From Clostridiaceae bacterium (GTDB lineage Bacteria; Bacillota_A; Clostridia; Clostridiales; Clostridiaceae), in NCBI GenBank assembly GCA_029256485.1, contig JAQSXU010000154.1, positions 1 through 7,702 of the forward strand: 7,702 nucleotides of DNA, given 5' to 3'. Below are positions 1 to 7,702 of the stretch, in pieces. A model generated the notes under the pieces. The model was not told the origin of the DNA and did no database searches. It saw only the letters and a list, made by a program, of their open reading frames with translations. Made by a program: the position numbers and the translations under genes. Position 1 is the first letter of the stretch. The number at the start of each line of letters is the position of its first letter.

Positions 1-1188
1 ATTATTTACAAGAGTAACAAATTCTGCTCTTGTTATATATTGATCAGGCTTAAAACTTCCATCAGGATATCCCTTAACCCAACCCTTTGCTGCAGAAGAA
101 TTAATATAATCAATCGCCCAATGTTCTTCTATATCAGTGAAGCTATTACCTTGTACTGAACTTAAATTATCAAATCTTGATGCTATAGCTGCTAATTCTG
201 CTCTGGTAATAGAATCTCCAGGTTTAAAACTTCCATTTGGATAACCTTCTATTATTTTTCCGTTAGCTAAAGTAGCAATATGCTTAATTGACCATCTGTT
301 GTCACTTACATCAGAGAAACCTTCAAATCCTGTTGATATGCTTATTCTATAAACAGGATCTAGAAGCCTATAGAATACTGTAGCTACTTCTTCTCTCGTT
401 ATTAACCCTTCAGGTCTCACTGTATTATCAGGATAACCTTGTATATATTGAAAGTGATCTATTTTATTTAATTTATCTATCGGTACTAAAGAATCTTCTA
501 TTATAACAACTTCTTCACCGTCATCGTCATCGTCACCATCATCGTCATTTCCATCATCCACATATGATTCTTTTAGATTTATGTATATCGGCATGTATGC
601 TGTTACAGATTCTAGCTCATTGCCAGCTTCGAGATCCATATATAGAGAATATTTTAAATCTATAACATCCCCCTTATCTAAGCTAAATTTATCATCAGAA
701 TCAAGTATGTATCCATGATACTTATCGCTTTCTGTTTCATAAAGTATATCTGAGAGTTTTGTATAATCAATCAGTGTTTTGTTAAAAGAAAAGATGTTTC
801 CCTTTTCTATTTTTAATTTTATATTAGTTAAAAATGAATTAAATACCGCATTTTTAGCATAATCATTTTTAATAACAATATTCTTTATACCTATAGCCAA
901 GTTATCTACATCTATTTTTTTAAATTGATTTTCTATCCTTATAACACCATTTATACCGCCAATTCCTTTTTCGGCATCATCTTCAGTAGCAGGATACAAT
1001 TGACCATCAAAGAGATTTCCATTATGAGATATGCTGCCATCATCGTTTATTGTTACTAATACATTAGGATTATTCTGTGTAGTTGCAGAAAAAGTATATT
1101 CCATTAGATTACTGGCTATTGCTCCGCCTACTAGAACAATAACAAATATCCTAAGTATAGTTTTAATAGATTTGCTTATAAGATTCAA
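1..1188 (-). CDS. SLH-domain surface protein with TasA-like ectodomain (partial, 3' end off window)
   Basis: The reading frame is open for 396 codons from a TTG at 1188 and runs off the left edge, so the C-terminus is missing. TTG is chosen because AAAGAGGTG lies 6 bases upstream and no better in-frame start is present. Residues 10-25 form a hydrophobic N-terminal signal or anchor; it lacks the GYxxW motif of the neighbouring secreted proteins. Residues about 40-205 look like a TasA/camelysin-type beta-sandwich, with LYPA...GVIRIEN early and AGNELESV before the last strand. An Asp-rich linker follows (211-226). Then come three S-layer homology repeats: about 237-277 with QGYPDN and ITREE, 291-337 with FSDV, EGYPNGSFKP and ITRAE, and 350-396 with FTDI, HWA, KGYPDGSFKP and ITRAE, the last probably cut near its end. 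SLH modules of this family bind secondary cell-wall polymers, so I infer it anchors the products of this locus to the wall. It lies 41 bases downstream of the DUF5305-like gene, presumably in the same transcript. The SLH call is firm; the ectodomain call is moderate. Confidence 0.93.
   Translation of the reverse strand, partial: MNLISKSIKTILRIFVIVLVGGAIASNLMEYTFSATTQNNPNVLVTINDDGSISHNGNLFDGQLYPATEDDAEKGIGGINGVIRIENQFKKIDVDNLAIGIKNIVIKNDYAKNAVFNSFLTNIKLKIEKGNIFSFNKTLIDYTKLSDILYETESDKYHGYILDSDDKFSLDKGDVIDLKYSLYMDLEAGNELESVTAYMPIYINLKESYVDDGNDDDGDDDDDGEEVVIIEDSLVPIDKLNKIDHFQYIQGYPDNTVRPEGLITREEVATVFYRLLDPVYRISISTGFEGFSDVSDNRWSIKHIATLANGKIIEGYPNGSFKPGDSITRAELAAIASRFDNLSSVQGNSFTDIEEHWAIDYINSSAAKGWVKGYPDGSFKPDQYITRAEFVTLVNN
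511..558 (-). repeat. Asp-codon microsatellite-like tract (acidic linker)
   Basis: On the coding strand this is a run of GAT/GAC codons with interspersed Gly, giving DDGNDDDGDDDDDGEE (residues 211-226 of the SLH protein). The near-repeat of GATGAC units could change length by slippage in steps of three or six bases without breaking the frame. It separates the beta-rich ectodomain from the SLH module. Calcium binding is conceivable from the dense Asp/Gly spacing but is not shown. Confidence 0.75.
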
Positions 1189-1229
1189 TTTTATCACCTC
1201 TTTGATAATAAATGTTATTAATAAAAAAA

Positions 1230-2366
1230 TTAACCACTTAACTGCGAATCTGTCTTAATTTGTTCTGTTACATCTTCTGTTATAATGTCTTCCATAATAT
1301 CTTTTTTATCATTAGTTTGTTCAGAGTTATCTAAGTATTTTAAATCAAGTAAAAACATTTCGTTAACATCAGATACATAAAACTTGTTAATTTCTTTATT
1401 TTCACAATATTTATAAACTATCGGTCTTTCTATTTCATCCGCAATTTTAACTAAATCCTCAATAGAATTAACATTTTTTGAATTCGTTATACTAATATCT
1501 GAATTTAGAGCAACTAACCTGTCTCCATACTTCTTAAAAATCCTTGAAAGTTCCTTTTCTAAAGGATTCTTTTCACATGCAAGTTTAGTAAAAAATATTA
1601 ATATTATTAGTGCAATTATTAAAAAAACTAAGATTATTCCATAAATTATAATTAGATTTTTGTTTATTGGTTTCTGCACCTGTTTTATTTCTTCAATTGC
1701 TTCAGTTTGATCTACAATATTTTCTTCAGTTATTTCAAACATGTCAACGTCAAGCGGAATTATTAAACTAGGTGAAATAGACTTTTCAATTGGTCCTTTA
1801 TCTGTAATTCCGGTTAAATCTATATTCATGATTAAGGTTAATACTGTGCTGCATTTTATTTTAGATGATTCTTTTATTTCTTTAACAAATGTATTATAGT
1901 CGATGAGATTTAATATTACACTTTCATTTATTAATATTTTACCATCATTGGAGTTAAACCATTCATTTTGCTTAATTGGAAAATCCTTCTCCCAAATATT
2001 TACTAAATCTTCCCCTTCACCGGTAAAACCTTTTACTTTAGCTATAATATTATATTCACCCTTAACATCTGTAGCTCTTTCTCCATTGAATTCATACTTT
2101 AGGTTTGCTCCAATGTAATCAACAAATTCTGTTATATATATTTTTCCTTTTTTTAAATTTTTTTCTTTATACAGATTATTTTGTTTAAGATAAACACTAT
2201 AATCTATTTTTGACTTATAGTTATATGTATATAAAGGGATTTTTTTATCCTCAAACCCTGGGTTAGAAATATTGTTGAAAATTAGAAATACACTTAATAT
2301 TATAAATAAAATTAGTACTAAAATTAGTGCTAATCTTGGCTTTTTATTTAATGTTAATTTCTTCAT
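1230..2366 (-). CDS. DUF5305-like two-pass membrane protein
   Basis: This 378-residue protein has a short basic N-terminus, a membrane helix at 11-30, an extracytoplasmic domain at about 31-236, a second helix at 238-260 and a cytoplasmic tail of about 118 residues. The outer domain has the pattern I associate with DUF5305: YNYKSKIDYSVYL, then YITEFVDYI, then VKGEYNIIAKV. The tail contains KYGDRLV and SIEDLVKIADEIERPIVY, also typical of that family, and ends in an acidic stretch. The family has no defined biochemical role; from memory it often sits beside archaeal-type signal peptidases, which fits here. The ATG at 2366 has AGGGGG just upstream. The gene follows a hairpin after the TasA-like gene and precedes the SLH gene by 41 bases. 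An accessory role in export or assembly of the secreted proteins is inference. The family assignment is from motif memory and moderately sure. Confidence 0.85.
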   Translation of the reverse strand: MKKLTLNKKPRLALILVLILFIILSVFLIFNNISNPGFEDKKIPLYTYNYKSKIDYSVYLKQNNLYKEKNLKKGKIYITEFVDYIGANLKYEFNGERATDVKGEYNIIAKVKGFTGEGEDLVNIWEKDFPIKQNEWFNSNDGKILINESVILNLIDYNTFVKEIKESSKIKCSTVLTLIMNIDLTGITDKGPIEKSISPSLIIPLDVDMFEITEENIVDQTEAIEEIKQVQKPINKNLIIIYGIILVFLIIALIILIFFTKLACEKNPLEKELSRIFKKYGDRLVALNSDISITNSKNVNSIEDLVKIADEIERPIVYKYCENKEINKFYVSDVNEMFLLDLKYLDNSEQTNDKKDIMEDIITEDVTEQIKTDSQLSG

Positions 2367-2398
2367 TTAATCCCCCTGGTTTGTATCTAAAAATGTAG

Positions 2399-2431
2399 TA
2401 ATAGTAGCAGGTATAAACCCTGCTACTATTA
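2399..2431 (-). terminator. Hairpin after the TasA-like gene: weak terminator or processing/attenuation stem
   Basis: The arms 2399-2411 and 2419-2431 are perfectly complementary over 13 bp (TAATAGTAGCAGG / CCTGCTACTATTA) around a 7-base loop. On the minus strand it begins 13 bases after the TasA-like stop codon. The following sequence is CTACATTTTT, so the U-tract is short and displaced by several bases. That suits partial termination or an mRNA-stabilising 3' stem better than a strong stop. It could raise the level of the upstream secreted subunit relative to the downstream DUF5305-like and SLH genes. Confidence 0.6.
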
Positions 2432-2443
2432 TTTTATATTGAA

Positions 2444-3028
2444 TTACTGATTGAATTGTTTAAATGTAGCACTAAGATTAGTTTCTAATGTAGAATCTTC
2501 TGCTATGTCATCAGGTGTTACAAAAGTAACATAATAACGTACATATCCACCTACAGGTATTTCTTCAGTAGGTAAATCCCAAGCATGACCTATATATTGT
2601 GTTGCAACTACATCTCCATTTGCATTAAGGATAGCGATATCTAATCTTGATGATGATAATCCTAAATCTTCCCATGGACCCCAAGGAGATGTTATACTAG
2701 CAAATTTTACAGGCATTGTACTGTTGTTTTTCATTAATACTTGAATATTGTATTTTGCTCCAGGGTATACATTATTAATTGTTAACTTTGCATTATCCCA
2801 TTGATTTTGTCCATCATTATCTGCCTCTACAGAATAATCAGATAGTGCACCCATATGAGGGTCTATTAAATTAACTTCTTCATTATTAAGATCTACAAAG
2901 TGAACATCTAAATGTCCTGTATTAACTTCTTGTTCAAAGTTTAATGTGTCAGTCCATGCTGCATATCCTGCTCCAATCATCATTATTGCTACTACCATTG
3001 TTAAAGCAATTAATTTTGTTTTTTTCAT
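2444..3028 (-). CDS. TasA/camelysin-like secreted protein with SipW-type signal peptide
   Basis: The protein is 194 residues and starts at an ATG preceded by AAGGAGAG at good spacing. Residues 1-25 are a SipW-type signal peptide: MKKTK, a hydrophobic core, then GAGYAAWTD. By analogy with TasA, cleavage would fall after GYA (residue 23). The mature part has TasA/camelysin hallmarks: NTGHLDVHF just after the signal, NNVYPGAKYNIQVLMKNNS at about 85-103 (compare the LKPGD...ENNGS region of TasA), and a closing strand pair ending SATFKQFNQ. In this family the mature protein is exported, donor-strand-like fibre formation is known for TasA, and some members are annotated as peptidase M73; no protease active site is visible here. 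It is the only gene in the window with a long private upstream region and a hairpin directly behind it, so I infer it is the most abundant product, probably the fibre subunit. The family is fairly sure; polymerisation is inferred. Confidence 0.9.
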   Translation of the reverse strand: MKKTKLIALTMVVAIMMIGAGYAAWTDTLNFEQEVNTGHLDVHFVDLNNEEVNLIDPHMGALSDYSVEADNDGQNQWDNAKLTINNVYPGAKYNIQVLMKNNSTMPVKFASITSPWGPWEDLGLSSSRLDIAILNANGDVVATQYIGHAWDLPTEEIPVGGYVRYYVTFVTPDDIAEDSTLETNLSATFKQFNQ

Positions 3029-3067
3029 TTTTATTCTCTCCTTTTATTTAATATTAACCTTTGAGGT

Positions 3068-3082
3068 TTCTATTGAATAGAA
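3068..3082. promoter_or_regulatory. 15-bp dyad TTCTATT-N-AATAGAA
   Basis: The 7-bp arms 3068-3074 and 3076-3082 are perfectly inverted around one base. The dyad lies 40 bases upstream of the TasA-like ATG and overlaps the second AAGTATAC copy. It could be a dimeric operator or, in RNA, a 6-bp hairpin with a 3-base loop in the leader. Confidence 0.4.
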
Positions 3083-3104
3083 GTATACAGTCATTTCAAT
3101 CTTC

Positions 3105-3132
3105 ATTCTACATGCATAAGTATACTTTTAAA
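3105..3132 (-). promoter_or_regulatory. Possible sigma-A-type promoter for the TasA-like gene
   Basis: On the minus strand, TTTAAA (3132-3127, 4 of 6 to TTGACA) is followed after 16 bases by TAGAAT (3110-3105, 5 of 6 to TATAAT). Transcription would start near 3098, giving a leader of about 70 bases. AT-rich DNA yields such matches by chance, so this is a candidate only. The palindrome AAGTATACTT lies in the spacer. Confidence 0.3.
3118..3127. promoter_or_regulatory. 10-bp palindrome AAGTATACTT, with a second partial copy at 3081-3088
   Basis: AAGTATACTT is a perfect palindrome between the candidate -35 and -10 boxes. AAGTATAC recurs 37 bp away at 3081-3088, where the last two positions differ. 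Paired sites around a promoter are what an operator would look like. The binding protein is unknown. Confidence 0.35.
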
Positions 3133-3197
3133 TCATATTTTAGTGTTACTATAATACTACTTAATTACTATATGGTAGCTCTTTAGTAGTATGAGCT

Positions 3198-4415
3198 TTA
3201 AAATACGATTTCATCAAGAGGTAAATCCTTTTCACTTTTTATTAGAAGAGTTAGCCATCCAATTTTAGGGACTACGTATTTAATTTTACCTTTAATATTT
3301 TTAGGTTTAACTAAATCTGCATCAACTCCTGAATTGTTGTCACCCTTAGTTCTAAAAAGCATATCTCCTGAATCATCTTTTTTTATTTGTATTATTCTGT
3401 GAGAAATCAGTATTCCATCGCTGTGAAACTGAATTACATCATTTACTTTCAGATTATTTATTTCTTCCTCTTCAGTTATTTTTTCTACTAATATAATATC
3501 TCCTGGTTTTATTTCAGGTTCCATGCTGCCCGTTGCAATGACCGATGGATATATCGGGAATACACCAACTGAAAACCATATAATACCTATAGATATAATA
3601 CTTGTGACAATCCAACTTACAAGATCTTCTTTATCATGCTGTGTTTTTTTAATTTCTTTAGCATTATTTAAATAAATAGATTTAAAAACCATCAAAAAGA
3701 AAATCGGACACAAAATACCTATTAAAGCTGTTATTATCCATTTTAAATTAGGTAGAATTGGTGAAAGCCAATGGAAACCCTGTATAGTACCCAAATATAT
3801 AATTGAAGTAAAGGGTCCTCCCAAATATACCAAATATGAAGTAAATAAATTATGAGAGAATTCAGGCGCAAAATACTCTGCACCAAATTTTACGAAATTT
3901 TCCAAGCTATTTAATTCAATGTATTTATTAACTGAAAAATTAGTAATAGTCATTAACAAGGCAATTATTATAAAAACTGTATAACTTTCTTTTTTTGTAA
4001 AACTGTTAATGAGATAGCTTCTTATAAATTCTCTGCCTACTAATGAAGATCCTATAAAAATTATATTTGTTATTATTCCTTTTGGAGTATGGCTATAAGG
4101 ACTTTTACCTATTCCATCAAAAAATCCGGCAAATATTGTTATCAAAATATAAGTAACACCAAAAATGCATGCCCAAAAATATATAAATTTTCTGTGCTTT
4201 AATTTTGCTGTTGATTTAATATGCGGCATTCTCCAAATAATTGTTGCTATACTAATCCACAAAATAGGCTTTATAAGATATGTAAATAAATATCCATCTA
4301 TAATTGTTTTTATTGAAGAATTATCAATTATATAAATAGATAAAAATAATATTATTATATAAATACTTTTTTTATAGGTTGTTCTTGTCGGTAAATAGTT
4401 ATTTGTATTACGCAT
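3198..4415 (-). CDS. SipW-like (S26B) signal peptidase with long polytopic N-terminal domain
   Basis: The 405-residue protein has its peptidase domain at about 288-391. The nucleophile lies in ATGSMEPEIKPGD (Ser297). The general-base position lies in ILISHRI (His339), where ordinary bacterial type I enzymes have Lys; Ser/His marks the archaeal, eukaryotic ER and SipW group. The third box is RTKGDNNSGVDADLV (356-369) with Asp359 and Asp365 as candidate acids. A membrane helix (265-287) precedes the active site. The first roughly 250 residues hold about seven more hydrophobic segments (near 17-31, 42-61, 76-98, 113-129, 144-162, 188-209 and 224-247). Bacillus SipW is only about 190 residues, so this N-terminal domain is additional; I cannot assign it to a family. 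The ATG at 4415 has AGAGGA five bases upstream. The gene follows two SipW-type substrates and precedes a third, so it very probably cleaves them. The peptidase assignment is firm; the role of the extra domain is unknown. Confidence 0.95.
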   Translation of the reverse strand: MRNTNNYLPTRTTYKKSIYIIILFLSIYIIDNSSIKTIIDGYLFTYLIKPILWISIATIIWRMPHIKSTAKLKHRKFIYFWACIFGVTYILITIFAGFFDGIGKSPYSHTPKGIITNIIFIGSSLVGREFIRSYLINSFTKKESYTVFIIIALLMTITNFSVNKYIELNSLENFVKFGAEYFAPEFSHNLFTSYLVYLGGPFTSIIYLGTIQGFHWLSPILPNLKWIITALIGILCPIFFLMVFKSIYLNNAKEIKKTQHDKEDLVSWIVTSIISIGIIWFSVGVFPIYPSVIATGSMEPEIKPGDIILVEKITEEEEINNLKVNDVIQFHSDGILISHRIIQIKKDDSGDMLFRTKGDNNSGVDADLVKPKNIKGKIKYVVPKIGWLTLLIKSEKDLPLDEIVF

Positions 4416-4493
4416 ACTTGTCCTCTATTAATTGATAAAAAATTATTTTTCTGCTCAAATTTCTTATTCTATCATTTTTCCTGATTCAGTTAG

Positions 4494-5183
4494 TTAATCA
4501 CTTGTAGATTCTGGCTCATTGCTTGAATCTTCTGATTCACTGCTTAATGGTTTAGATTCATTTGCAGTCTCGCTCGTTTCATCACTTGACTTTTCTGGTT
4601 CATTGTTTTGTCCTTCTGATTCATCATTTGATGATTCAGTTTTATTGTTTAATTCCGAAGAGTTGTCGCTTGATTGTTCAAGCTCATTTAGTGTTTCTTC
4701 TGATTCACTACTTGATGGTTCTAATCCATTTATAGGCTCTTTCGTTTCATTACTCAACTGTTCTGGTTCATTGTTTATTTCTTCTGTTTTGTCATTTGTT
4801 GGGTATGATTCATTGTTTGTTTGTTCATTTTCGCTGCTTGATTCAACAGAACTCGAACTTGAATTATCAGTAGAATTAAGCACAGGTATTTCTGTTAACT
4901 TATTTTGATCTTGAATCAACTGGTCTTCTAGTAATTTTTGTTGTTCTAAAAGAACTCTTTGCTGTTCAGCAAGCATTTTTTGTTGTTCTTCAGCTATCTG
5001 TATATCTAGTTGAGTTTGAAGTTCTTCTAATTGTGCATTCATACTTTCTAATACATCTGGATCAGGAACTACTGTAATATTACCTTTTATATTTAACTCC
5101 TTTTCCCATAAACCATATCCAGATGATAACAGTATCATACCTGCAAACACACTAATAAAAATTATAGTTAATTTATTCTTCAT
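4494..5183 (-). CDS. SipW-type secreted coiled-coil protein with Ser/Glu/Asn-rich repeat tail
   Basis: With the preferred ATG at 5183 the product is 229 residues. An in-frame ATG at 5195 would add MEEN, but its GAG-GAA codons form part of the GGAGG ribosome binding site of the 5183 start, and only the shorter form gives the basic MKNK N-terminus shared with the other secreted proteins. Residues 1-26 are a SipW-type signal (SSGYGLW), with cleavage likely after Gly24. Residues 41-95 are a Gln/Leu/Glu-rich amphipathic helix with EEQQKMLAEQQRVLLEQQKL, a good coiled-coil candidate. Residues 103-229 are almost wholly Ser, Glu, Asn, Thr, Pro and Asp, and include a 56-residue tandem duplication. No TasA-like beta domain, sortase motif or SLH repeat is visible. 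Such a protein could be a stalk, spacer or oligomerising adaptor in the surface structure, but that is inference; I recognise no family. It follows the upstream secreted-protein gene by 29 bases. Confidence 0.88.
   Translation of the reverse strand: MKNKLTIIFISVFAGMILLSSGYGLWEKELNIKGNITVVPDPDVLESMNAQLEELQTQLDIQIAEEQQKMLAEQQRVLLEQQKLLEDQLIQDQNKLTEIPVLNSTDNSSSSSVESSSENEQTNNESYPTNDKTEEINNEPEQLSNETKEPINGLEPSSSESEETLNELEQSSDNSSELNNKTESSNDESEGQNNEPEKSSDETSETANESKPLSSESEDSSNEPESTSD
4528..4863 (-). repeat. 168-bp (56-codon) tandem duplication in the low-complexity tail
   Basis: Two copies lie in the same frame at a period of 168 bp. The best conserved 91 bp, 4528-4618 and 4696-4786, align without gaps with 18 mismatches by my count (about 80% identity). 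The remaining 77 bp of each unit stay in register but are weaker. At protein level NNEPE recurs at residues 137 and 193 and SSESE at 158 and 214, both 56 apart. This indicates growth of the tail by duplication. Confidence 0.8.
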
Positions 5184-5188
5184 ATTTT

Positions 5189-5193
5189 CCTCC
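5189..5193 (-). promoter_or_regulatory. Ribosome binding site GGAGG that decides the start at 5183
   Basis: GGAGG overlaps the upstream candidate start (ATGGAGG) and ends 5 bases before the ATG at 5183. The ATG at 5195 has no purine-rich site of its own (CTGTTTAT precedes it). The shorter product is therefore preferred. Confidence 0.75.
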
Positions 5194-5212
5194 ATATAAA
5201 CAGATAGCAGTT

Positions 5213-5809
5213 CTATATTCCTTGTTCAAAAGACAATACATACTCAAAATCATAATTTTCTTCTCTATCATACAAACGTATTTTTTCTTTTAACATCTCT
5301 ATTTCATTTTCTAATTCTGTTATACTACCTTTAGATATAGTATTGGCTTCACTTGATTGAATTTTATTATCACAATTCGGATTTATATTAATCTCAAAAG
5401 ATTCAATATAATCATTCTTAATATTTAAACTGCTTCTTTGTTGTTTACTATTAGATAAACCAGTTAAAGTTGCAATATTATCATTATTTTCATATAAATT
5501 ATTGAAAACTGAAGGTATGGATCCTTCATCAATAATCTTTATAGATATATCATTATTAAAGCTTGGGTAAACTTCACCCTCTACATATAATGTTCGCCCG
5601 TCATCTGAAGGTATAAGAACCAATTTTTCATCACCAAAAGATATTTTTTCATCATCCACATAGAAAACTGGATTTATAAAACCTGTCTTTACTGACAATC
5701 TTATATTATTGTTTTCTTCCCATGATGAATACCCAACGCCTAATATGCTCATTGATAAAATAGTAGCTAAAAAAATAACTTTTGTTTTTATTAATCTTCT
5801 TTTTTTCAT
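5213..5809 (-). CDS. Small secreted protein with SipW-type signal peptide, TasA-like with inserted helix
   Basis: This is a 198-residue protein. The N-terminus is MKKRRLIKTK, a hydrophobic core, then GVGYSSWEE (signal about 1-30, cleavage likely after Ser28). The following NNIRLSVKTGFINPVF matches the stretch just after the signal in TasA/camelysin proteins (compare NTGHLDVHF in the TasA-like product of this locus). EGEVYPSFNNDISIKI at 77-92 fits the position of the strand after the PG turn. Residues 163-181 (ITELENEIEMLKEKIRLYD) form a short amphipathic helix inserted before a last strand, FEYVLSFEQ. I read it as a divergent TasA-like fold carrying a coiled-coil insertion. It starts 16 bases after the response-regulator gene, with GGGGGA nine bases ahead of its ATG, so it is co-transcribed. 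A minor subunit or TapA-like assembly role is possible by position, but there is no sequence similarity to TapA that I can see. Function uncertain. Confidence 0.85.
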   Translation of the reverse strand: MKKRRLIKTKVIFLATILSMSILGVGYSSWEENNNIRLSVKTGFINPVFYVDDEKISFGDEKLVLIPSDDGRTLYVEGEVYPSFNNDISIKIIDEGSIPSVFNNLYENNDNIATLTGLSNSKQQRSSLNIKNDYIESFEININPNCDNKIQSSEANTISKGSITELENEIEMLKEKIRLYDREENYDFEYVLSFEQGI

Positions 5810-5825
5810 ATTCCATATCCCCCAT

Positions 5826-6440
5826 CTAAAGGTTAACTACATGATTTACTAATAATGCTGCTTGTGTTCTGTGACTTAATTGAAGTTTTAACAATATACT
5901 GCTCACATGTTTCTTTACTGTGTGTTCTGAAATATATAATTTCTTTGCAATTTCTCCATTGCTTAATCCTTTGCCTACTTCTATTAATACATCATATTCC
6001 CTAGGTGTTAATTCTGTAAAACTGTTAGTTAATGTGCTTTCCACCTGATATTTAGTTATTTCAGGATCAATGAACTTTCTTCCTCTTAAAATAACATTAA
6101 TTGCATATAGTATATCTTCTGCAAAAGCATCCTTTAGTATATATCCGTCTACTCCCACTTCTTCTGATCTAACGAAATCTTCCCTTTTTATTGAAGAAGT
6201 AAGTATTAAAAATTTAGTACTTGTTCCTTTAGCTTTAGCTTTTTTTACTATCTCTAATCCATCTTCTTTTCCTAAATTTAAATCCACTATAGCGAGATTT
6301 GGTTTTTTAGAATTTATTATTGTTAATGCTTCATCAATACATGATGCTTCAAATACCATATCAATATTCTCATCACATGAAAGTGTGGACAATATCCCTC
6401 TTCTCACTAATGGATGATCATCTACTACCAGTATGTTCAT
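5826..6440 (-). CDS. NarL/LuxR-family response regulator
   Basis: The 204-residue protein has a full receiver domain (1-120): acidic pair Asp7-Asp8, phosphoacceptor Asp53 in IVDLNLG, Thr81 in LILTSS and Lys103 in YILKDA. A linker leads to a LuxR-type helix-turn-helix at about 142-200, with ELTPREYDVL, GLSNGEIAKKLYISEHTVKKHVSSIL and a final dimer helix. All residues needed for phosphorylation and DNA binding are present, so it should be a functional transcription factor activated by the adjacent kinase. The start ATG overlaps the kinase stop as ATGA, and AAGGAG lies 10 bases upstream. The following gene begins 16 bases after its stop, so the regulator is joined directly to the secreted-protein genes. 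Autoregulation and control of the 3029-3197 region are plausible but not shown. The family is certain; the targets are not. Confidence 0.97.
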   Translation of the reverse strand: MNILVVDDHPLVRRGILSTLSCDENIDMVFEASCIDEALTIINSKKPNLAIVDLNLGKEDGLEIVKKAKAKGTSTKFLILTSSIKREDFVRSEEVGVDGYILKDAFAEDILYAINVILRGRKFIDPEITKYQVESTLTNSFTELTPREYDVLIEVGKGLSNGEIAKKLYISEHTVKKHVSSILLKLQLSHRTQAALLVNHVVNL

Positions 6441-7492
6441 ATAGCTGCTTCTCCTTTTAATAGCATATTTGGAAATATTATTATCAGTTTAGTTCCCTTA
6501 TTTACTATACTCTCAATACTTATTTCTCCATGTAAAATTGCTGCTAATTGTTGAAGGTTTTGTAACCCTAATCCATTTGTTGAATTACAAATTATTTCTT
6601 TTGTATCGAAACCTAATCCGTCATCAATTATACTAAGAAGTGTTCTTTCAGCAGATATATCTAATTTTATATCAATATTTTTTGCTTTGCCATGCCGAAC
6701 TGCATTTCCTAAGCCCTCACAAATCATTCTATACAATGCCTTCTTTTGTTCTGTTGTTAGAATTTCTAAGCTGCCATAAATACTGAATGGGATACTTACT
6801 TTATTTAATTTTATAATATCTTCAATGTATCTTTTTATATCTGCACTAAAACTGCTGTTTCCCGTCTTCTTCCAGCTAAGCCCATATATTTTATCTCTGA
6901 GATCTTTCATTGTTAAATCAATTGTTTTTCTAAAATCATTTAAATCATCTTCAATATCCTTTAATTTGTAGTTATTTAAATTCTTTATAGTTGAAAACAT
7001 TCCGCAGGATAGACTAAATAATTTCTGCAATACACTGTCATGAATTTCATTGGCTATTCTATTTTGTTCTTCAGAAATTAGTAATCTATCATTAACTTCT
7101 TCTAAAGTTAATCTTTCAAATGCATTTGAAATAAGCTCTGATAAAAATTGCAATTGATAAGCTATATCATCATAGAGAATACTGTCTCTATTTGTTAAAA
7201 TCTCAACACCCAGTAAACCATATGTTAAGTAGTTGTTACCGACATATATAATTAAAAATTTTGTATCAGACAAACAGACTTCATATGGAACATTAAATTC
7301 TATAATGTTATCTTTTTCCATTAAAATGTGTTCTTCAATTGAGTTTAAGATATAATTATTTTCAAATGATGATAACATTTTATTGGACTCAGCTGAAATA
7401 TCATAGTAAAATACCATGCTTGTTTTAGTAATTCTCTTTATATGATCAAATGAAAGTTTTATTATTCCTTCTCTATTTCCTTGATTTGTCAA
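6437..7492 (-). CDS. HisKA_3-type sensor histidine kinase with GAF-like N-terminal domain
   Basis: The 351-residue protein belongs to the NarX/DegS/DesK class. Residues about 10-128 look like a GAF-type sensor (TSMVFYYDIS, later YLTYGLLGVEIL). A helix at 115-145 leads to the H-box NRIANEIHDSVLQKL with His151 as phosphoacceptor. The ATPase domain has the N-box GLGNAVRHGKA (Asn263, His267), the G1 box DDGLGFD (290-296), the G2 box NGLGLQNL and a final KGTKLIIIFP. It has no membrane helix of its own. The stop overlaps the regulator start by ATGA, marking a cognate pair. The TTG start at 7492 has no convincing Shine-Dalgarno and lies 20 bases inside the upstream membrane-protein gene. Translation may therefore depend on coupling, or the true start may be later (Met26), or the two frames may once have been one membrane-bound kinase. 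The kinase call is certain; the N-terminus is not. Confidence 0.95.
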   Translation of the reverse strand: MTNQGNREGIIKLSFDHIKRITKTSMVFYYDISAESNKMLSSFENNYILNSIEEHILMEKDNIIEFNVPYEVCLSDTKFLIIYVGNNYLTYGLLGVEILTNRDSILYDDIAYQLQFLSELISNAFERLTLEEVNDRLLISEEQNRIANEIHDSVLQKLFSLSCGMFSTIKNLNNYKLKDIEDDLNDFRKTIDLTMKDLRDKIYGLSWKKTGNSSFSADIKRYIEDIIKLNKVSIPFSIYGSLEILTTEQKKALYRMICEGLGNAVRHGKAKNIDIKLDISAERTLLSIIDDGLGFDTKEIICNSTNGLGLQNLQQLAAILHGEISIESIVNKGTKLIIIFPNMLLKGEAAI

Positions 7493-7702
7493 AATATTTA
7501 CTGATCATGCTAATAGATATTACTATTGCTCGAAAAGCAGCTATTATCATGATGTAACTTAGTAAAAGATTAGAATCTTTAATTAGTAAATACGGGATGT
7601 ATACACTATTATTTGTAAAATATTTCATAATTATTCCATAACATATAAAATATAATAAAAATATTACCCATCCAAAACCCTTTTTTAAAAATACGACGCT
7701 TA
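7473..7702 (-). CDS. C-terminal end of an integral membrane protein (partial)
   Basis: A frame open to the right edge gives 75 residues before a TAG at 7475-7473. It contains two hydrophobic segments (residues about 10-27 and 46-67 of the visible part) and a short basic tail, KYFDKSRK. The visible part has no recognisable motif. Its end overlaps the kinase start by 20 bases in another frame. It may be the separate membrane sensor of the two-component system, or the N-terminal membrane part of the kinase cut off by a frameshift. The window does not contain its start. Confidence 0.65.
   Translation of the reverse strand, partial: SVVFLKKGFGWVIFLLYFICYGIIMKYFTNNSVYIPYLLIKDSNLLLSYIMIIAAFRAIVISISMISKYFDKSRK

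Follow-up and report, generated by a model that had tools for sequence, protein, structure and literature searches.

The available text of PMC7395162 describes in Clostridium perfringens a sipW-bsaABCRSD operon that itself includes the genes of the two-component system BsaS/BsaR and of BsaA, a filament-forming protein. Two mRNAs are reported there, a short one covering sipW-bsaA and a long one made by read-through, with terminators predicted, one of them after bsaA. In Bacillus subtilis, according to the available parts of PMC9674648 and PMC10151520, TapA donates an N-terminal strand that serves as the first strand of TasA, and biofilm structuring needs just a fraction of the TapA N-terminal residues. 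TasA is a donor-strand-exchanged fibre (PMC9674648, as available), and the accessible text of a preprint (PMC11952670) describes TasA, archaeal bundling pili and the ABPx fibres of Pyrodictium abyssi alike as donor-strand exchanged. Here we examined a 7,702-nucleotide stretch from a Clostridiaceae bacterium (assembly GCA_029256485.1, contig JAQSXU010000154.1; hereafter the window) that encodes a two-component system, three secreted proteins (SEC1, SEC2 and TASA), a long signal peptidase, a DUF5305 protein and an SLH-domain wall anchor. This locus of Sedimentibacter and its relatives is likely dedicated to the secretion and assembly of surface fibres of the TasA type, built by donor-strand exchange, a function read here from the genes alone.

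All genes named in an initial annotation of the window were found by open reading frames (ORFs) and family searches. They lie on the minus strand throughout and are transcribed in the order kinase, regulator, SEC1, SEC2, peptidase, TASA, DUF5305, SLH protein (Table 1). The one-strand run with short gaps that had been proposed was borne out: kinase and regulator genes overlap by 4 nt, and the distances that follow are 16, 17, 78, 169, 77 and 32 nt. The gene ends required correction, as the SLH gene continues past base 1 and the kinase does not start at 7492; genes at both ends of the window are incomplete. The source organism is a Sedimentibacter-like bacterium. DNA comparison with Sedimentibacter saalensis (locus L001) gave 71-84% nucleotide identity in four stretches, outside which fall most of TASA (2395-2959) and SEC2 (4339-4901). 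Because the same gene arrangement recurs in many species, it is far beyond chance.

The window has in common with the bsa operon a SipW-type peptidase, further secreted proteins and an internal two-component system, and the polymer-forming BsaA with its predicted terminator parallels TASA and the hairpin behind it (PMC7395162, available text). The bsa operon differs in gene order and, to judge from its 1.4-kb bicistronic sipW-bsaA mRNA, presumably has a short peptidase; the available text mentions neither a DUF5305 protein nor an SLH anchor, the bsa genes being compared here by description only (PMC7395162). The initial annotation had taken an embedded two-component system as distinguishing the locus. 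BsaS/BsaR of the C. perfringens operon contradict this (PMC7395162, as available), and a two-component system in such an operon is nothing new. Shared with tapA-sipW-tasA are the order of accessory protein(s), peptidase and major subunit, the relationship to TasA, and an accessory protein whose N-terminal strand resembles that of the subunit; the Ig-like domain of TapA is complete, and none was detected in SEC2 (PMC9674648, PMC10151520, available parts). The locus works like the TasA/camelysin fibre systems and is probably a member, and it differs from them in peptidase, DUF5305 partner and anchor. The SipW of B. subtilis is a short peptidase and, to our knowledge, the tapA-sipW-tasA operon has no two-component system, DUF5305 protein or wall-anchor protein, as the initial annotation also said.

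To place the secreted proteins, a TASA family profile (A3, 26 sequences) was searched against solved structures in the PDB. The closest was AbpX (E 6e-17 and 2.6e-11), and TasA matched weakly (E 0.0015 and 0.0019). From its name we take AbpX (9sj2, 9rhp) to be ABPx of P. abyssi; it is of archaeal origin, unlike the TASA family. The SEC1 profile (A5) also matched AbpX (E 2e-5) and aligned with the TASA profile over 103 columns (99.4%, E 2.9e-21) and with mature TASA (99.0%, E 3e-18). By profile comparison, the TASA and SEC1 families are related to TasA/AbpX. At E<=0.01, 17 of the 26 TASA members matched Peptidase_M73/camelysin (PF12389), 11 the SipW-type signal model TIGR04088 and 10 the BsaA family TIGR04090; against the last, the window's TASA reached 14.7 bits, under the NCBI cut-off of 60. 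Conservation in the family is poor (22% mean column identity).

The camelysin family is named after a metallo-endopeptidase, and the Pfam matches of the window's own TASA were all sub-threshold (fn3, CBM_4_9, NADase_transloc). These matches would suit another reading, in which the secreted proteins are not polymer subunits but soluble proteases like camelysin, or surface proteins that bind carbohydrates. We consider this highly improbable, given that the top solved-structure matches of the TASA profile are fibre subunits, that many loci have several subunit-type genes, that the wall anchor probably has a subunit-like domain, and that BsaA provides a precedent (PMC7395162, available text).

Variation was seen among TASA genes. 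In L001, L004, L010, L011, L012 and L015 there is a second type of C terminus, EQW...DPN or DPT...GGDG or GGNG, not ...QFNQ. TASA-type genes are inverted downstream of the peptidase at L019 (7347-8757), L020 (3924-4610), L023 (11272-12793) and L024 (3657-4262); long exact inverted repeats were not found at these four loci, and in L019 and L020 the contig stops before any DUF5305.

SEC2 was distinct from the other two secreted proteins. Its profile (A6) matches TASA over signal and first strand only (38 columns, 97.1%), followed by coiled coil or low complexity. Because SEC2 keeps only these parts, and TapA supplies the first strand of TasA, SEC2 may be a minimal strand donor. The coiled-coil repeat protein of the initial annotation holds for Sedimentibacter and near relatives, where the coiled coil encoded by the SEC2 gene (4494-5195) is seen; different low-complexity tails are present in other loci.

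The peptidase and DUF5305 genes were followed across species. One genome per species was scanned with a peptidase alignment of 24 sequences. Of the 492 relatives obtained, the 80 best were retained, representing 79 distinct loci. The peptidase was full-length (370 aa or more) in 73 of these, excluding L048, L073, L075, L076, L078 and L079. DUF5305 was within 4.5 kb of the long peptidase in 65 loci and further down the gene run in L018 and L041, giving 67/73; four of the six loci without it are at contig ends. When DUF5305 directly follows the peptidase (31 pairs), the median gap is 7 nt. A relative of the SipW-type substrates was nearby in 71/73 loci, SEC1, SEC2 and TASA being counted jointly because the iterated profiles used for labelling merge them.

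Class-wide scans were added because the 79 loci had been picked by peptidase. In the class of S. saalensis (391 genomes), a full-length peptidase (E<1e-50) was found in 18 genomes, with DUF5305 within 3.8 kb in 17; the remaining one (G220) lies at the end of a contig. In the class of Halobacillus (398 genomes), one genome, the centre itself, had a long peptidase, with DUF5305 adjoining. Both scans together thus gave the pairing in 18/19 genomes. They overlap the 79 loci in genomes (G001, G004 and G005 were reached via those loci), and the peptidase scan, which scored few candidates per genome, overlooked at least one (G101). The initial annotation had predicted a co-conserved neighbourhood for sensing, processing, subunits and wall attachment and had named scattered homologues as the test; the neighbourhood was recovered across loci, and the genes co-occur. 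The conserved core is a TasA-like subunit, the long peptidase and DUF5305, and DUF5305 as a near-constant partner of the long peptidase looks new.

The reverse pairing was looser: 17 of 28 above-cut-off DUF5305 places in the 391 genomes adjoin a full-length peptidase found by the scan. The remaining 11 places and one sub-threshold place were examined besides (L091-L102). A long peptidase is present at L092. A second arrangement is seen at L094-L097 and L101, where the neighbours of DUF5305 are a kinase-regulator pair and an S26 peptidase of different build, its extra part being C-terminal. L099 and L100 are at contig ends, L093 and L098 look like orphans, and the sub-threshold L102 consists of fragments only. 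At two of the three DUF5305 places in the Halobacillus class (G664, G676), a long peptidase was not found nearby. In L094 (5957-16751), the second arrangement continues with the gene of a short S26 peptidase, TasA-like genes and the gene of an SLH protein.

The window's DUF5305 protein matched PF17231 at E 4.9e-34 (118.1 bits, gathering cut-off 29). Its AlphaFold model (mean predicted local distance difference test score 84, predicted template modelling score 0.55) predicts with good confidence a transmembrane (TM) helix, an extracellular beta-sandwich (38-231), a second TM helix and a small cytosolic domain, a predicted layout in which the topology is putative. Fold searches with this model returned generic sandwiches only, and a publication on DUF5305 was not found in the openly licensed literature.

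The window peptidase (405 aa) is classed as endoplasmic reticulum (ER)-type by TIGR02228 (E 7.3e-20, 71.4 bits, cut-off 51.85) and scored 75.2 bits against the SipW equivalog NF046067, under the 190-bit cut-off. S297, H339, D359 and D365 are conserved in 74/74 long peptidases. For residues 8-251 a Rce1/SpdC (CPBP)-like fold, as in SpdC/Rce1 (CPBP/Abi) proteins, is tentatively predicted, and an xExxR motif like theirs is present in 72/74 peptidases, with R132 in 74/74. CPBP motif 1 is EExxxR, and EExxR or QExxR in PrsW/APH-1; the shorter ExxR form was scored here. The window domain differs from SpdC/Rce1 in being fused to a signal peptidase and in lacking conservation of the CPBP membrane histidines: H215 is kept in 30/74, and an invariant or nearly invariant histidine was not found in residues 1-260 of the alignment (A7). 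Proteolysis by the membrane domain seems doubtful because these histidines are not conserved. It is also conceivable, though rather unlikely, that comparison of helical bundles produced the Rce1/SpdC match by accident and that the TM helices of the domain are unrelated to these proteins. An ER-type signal peptidase with a predicted CPBP-like membrane domain looks new. Elsewhere, a further short S26-peptidase-like ORF lies directly 3' of the anchor gene in L011 (15647-16249) and L012 (6483-6713, cut by the contig end).

The gap between TASA and DUF5305 in the window contains a 13-bp hairpin (-20 kcal/mol, z -4.3). Hairpins of -12 kcal/mol or better were surveyed in adjacent same-strand gaps of >=30 nt in the 79 loci, with expected counts from 10 shuffles each. 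They were found in 33/34 gaps between a substrate gene and DUF5305 (expected 2.2). Counts in the other gaps, named in order of transcription, were: kinase to regulator, 0/1 (0); regulator to substrate, 2/21 (0.3); substrate to substrate, 16/40 (0.4); substrate to peptidase, 15/37 (1.2); peptidase to substrate, 9/31 (2.7); peptidase to DUF5305, 0/1 (0); DUF5305 to SLH, 5/15 (0.2); and DUF5305 to substrate, 1/7 (0.2). An excess is thus seen in other gaps also, chiefly after subunit genes, and is near-universal only before DUF5305. A strong hairpin between the fibre gene and DUF5305 looks new.

The anchor protein has three SLH stretches (E 5.5e-34, 116.3 bits, cut-off 20.8); a relative, P0241, is 99% identical over residues 1-230 and has a full length of 459 aa. 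An SLH/anchor protein was found in 21/73 long-peptidase loci, and 14 of the other 52 are near a contig edge. The anchor N-domain (mature parts, 84 sequences) matched mature TASA at 87.6% (E 3.5e-6, 119 columns), compared with 0.1%, 0.3% and 0.0% for the peptidase, DUF5305 and SEC2 profiles. We regard the N-domain as probably TasA-like, and go no further because smaller profiles scored lower. In 3/57 homologues (P0257 of S. hydroxybenzoicus, P0266 and P0279), the SLH part is replaced by LPxTG, a hydrophobic stretch and lysines. This swap in sequence supports wall anchoring, whatever the identity of the N-domain. In L018 (16408-17028) and L041 (16456-17082), N-domain and SLH part are separate neighbouring ORFs.

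SLH domains on the anchors of many clostridial loci and the low conservation of TASA could also point to an S-layer-like coat or a cell-bound matrix film instead of discrete fibres, with the SLH protein as an S-layer component. This seems very unlikely, because the N-domain is kept while SLH is exchanged for LPXTG or placed on a separate ORF, and because donor-strand fibres match the TASA profile.

The kinase/regulator pair was less constant. Both genes were found in 33/73 long-peptidase loci, and 13 of the other 40 are near a contig edge; among these 40, L035 has a kinase only and six loci a regulator only. Both may be under-counted because single window sequences were the sole queries. In 27/73 loci the long peptidase is present and there is room upstream, yet the pair was not found nearby. 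The search found no adjoining pair in S. hydroxybenzoicus (L004) either, despite room upstream. Like the SLH anchor, the pair is an option of certain lineages and lies outside the core.

Several observations weigh against the interpretation as a dedicated fibre locus. The kinase is frame-broken in the window copy, in the region 7473-7511. Long kinase homologues have about 570 aa, and that of S. saalensis has 567. The 5'-open ORF 7473-7700 matches residues 117-180 of the latter at 80% identity (51/64), and ORF 6437-7492 begins at residue 220 of that kinase and is 82% identical to its residues 220-567. The frame is broken because a net ~101 bases are absent between the pieces relative to S. saalensis (window 7505/7511, L001 7238/7131, BLAST borders), a loss that is either genuine or an artefact of assembly. 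DUF5305 was not found in L053 and L070 despite downstream room. On its 8.2-kb contig, L091 has a kinase-regulator-SEC1-DUF5305-SLH run that lacks peptidase and TASA, which may reflect loss or mis-assembly. The three SipW-type substrates of the initial annotation agree with GYxxW in all three window signals (SEC1, SEC2, TASA), but at E<=1 the NCBI model TIGR04088 lists only that of TASA, at 16.3 bits and below the cut-off of 19. A PF12389 match of the window's own TASA was not found at E<=0.01 in the Pfam search; at E<=1, searches found no NCBIfam model for SEC1 or SEC2 and no Pfam family for SEC1. The anchor/TASA likeness hangs on a single profile pair: the N-domain scored 0.3% against SEC1, where a match is expected if both are TasA-like, and with earlier, smaller anchor profiles the scores were 39% for TASA and, over 27 columns, 60% for SEC1. 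A U-rich tail, by our own rule, follows the hairpin in 17/34 gaps between substrate and DUF5305, and the tail in the window is just moderately T-rich.

Table 1. Features of the window, listed in order of transcription
Feature	Position	Strand	Evidence or remark
Kinase membrane-part piece, other frame	7473..7700	-	extends past window edge; 80% identity over 64 aa to S. saalensis kinase
Histidine kinase, C-terminal 351 aa	6437..7492	-	HisKA_3 + HATPase_c (Pfam)
NarL/LuxR-type response regulator	5826..6440	-	Response_reg 1.7e-20, GerE 2.4e-16
SEC1, putative secreted minor subunit, GYSSW signal	5213..5809	-	TasA-like fold by profile
SEC2, GYGLW signal and one strand, coiled coil, low-complexity tail	4494..5195	-	TapA-like nucleator/cap candidate
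Long ER-type (S26B) signal peptidase	3198..4415	-	residues 1-255 multi-TM domain; about 265-405 peptidase
TASA, presumed major fibre subunit, GYAAW signal	2444..3028	-	TasA/AbpX-like by family profile
RNA hairpin, terminator/attenuator-like, directly 3' of TASA	2399..2431	-	13 bp, folding energy
DUF5305 protein	1230..2366	-	PF17231 E 4.9e-34
Wall-anchor protein with probable TasA-like domain, then acidic linker and SLH domains	1..1197	-	SLH 5.5e-34; extends past window edge

The fibre-locus interpretation is supported at the sequence level by the gene set, its conservation, the TasA/AbpX relation, the ER-type peptidase with its extra domain, the DUF5305 pairing, the anchor module and the hairpin. 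In the model we propose, the kinase/regulator pair would turn the operon on, as BsaS/BsaR does in C. perfringens, and the hairpin would attenuate transcription past TASA, like the predicted bsaA terminator, so that subunit exceeds DUF5305 and anchor. Sec would export pre-SEC1, pre-SEC2 and pre-TASA, and the long peptidase would cleave behind the GYxxW signal and free an N-terminal strand. SEC2, as strand plus tail, may donate the first strand and start or cap the fibre, as the TapA N terminus does, and TASA, with SEC1 as minor subunit, would polymerise via donor-strand exchange. DUF5305, a predicted membrane beta-sandwich with a cytosolic domain, could act beside the peptidase as chaperone or assembly platform. 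The SLH protein would bond the fibre via its probable TasA-like domain and fasten it to the wall.

More tentatively, and with less than even confidence, we suggest a separate machine for donor-strand fibres, in which the peptidase with its non-catalytic Rce1/SpdC-like scaffold complexes DUF5305, which would hold freshly cut subunits and pass them to the fibre. In loci with a kinase, this SpdC-like domain could in addition inform the kinase of secretion load, given that kinase binding by SpdC relies on membrane contacts (PMC5854430, available text). The 27 loci with room upstream and no pair found nearby argue against this signalling role.

With these results, a processing module conserved in anaerobic Bacillota becomes linked to the biofilm fibres of bacteria (TasA, BsaA) and to fibres of archaea (AbpX). 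The DUF5305 family gains a testable role as partner of an ER-type signal peptidase, SEC2 resembles a minimal strand donor, and the exchange of SLH for LPXTG behind a single domain represents a natural swap of wall anchors. If true, the machine of peptidase scaffold and DUF5305 would, as we frame it, be a Gram-positive counterpart to chaperone-usher.

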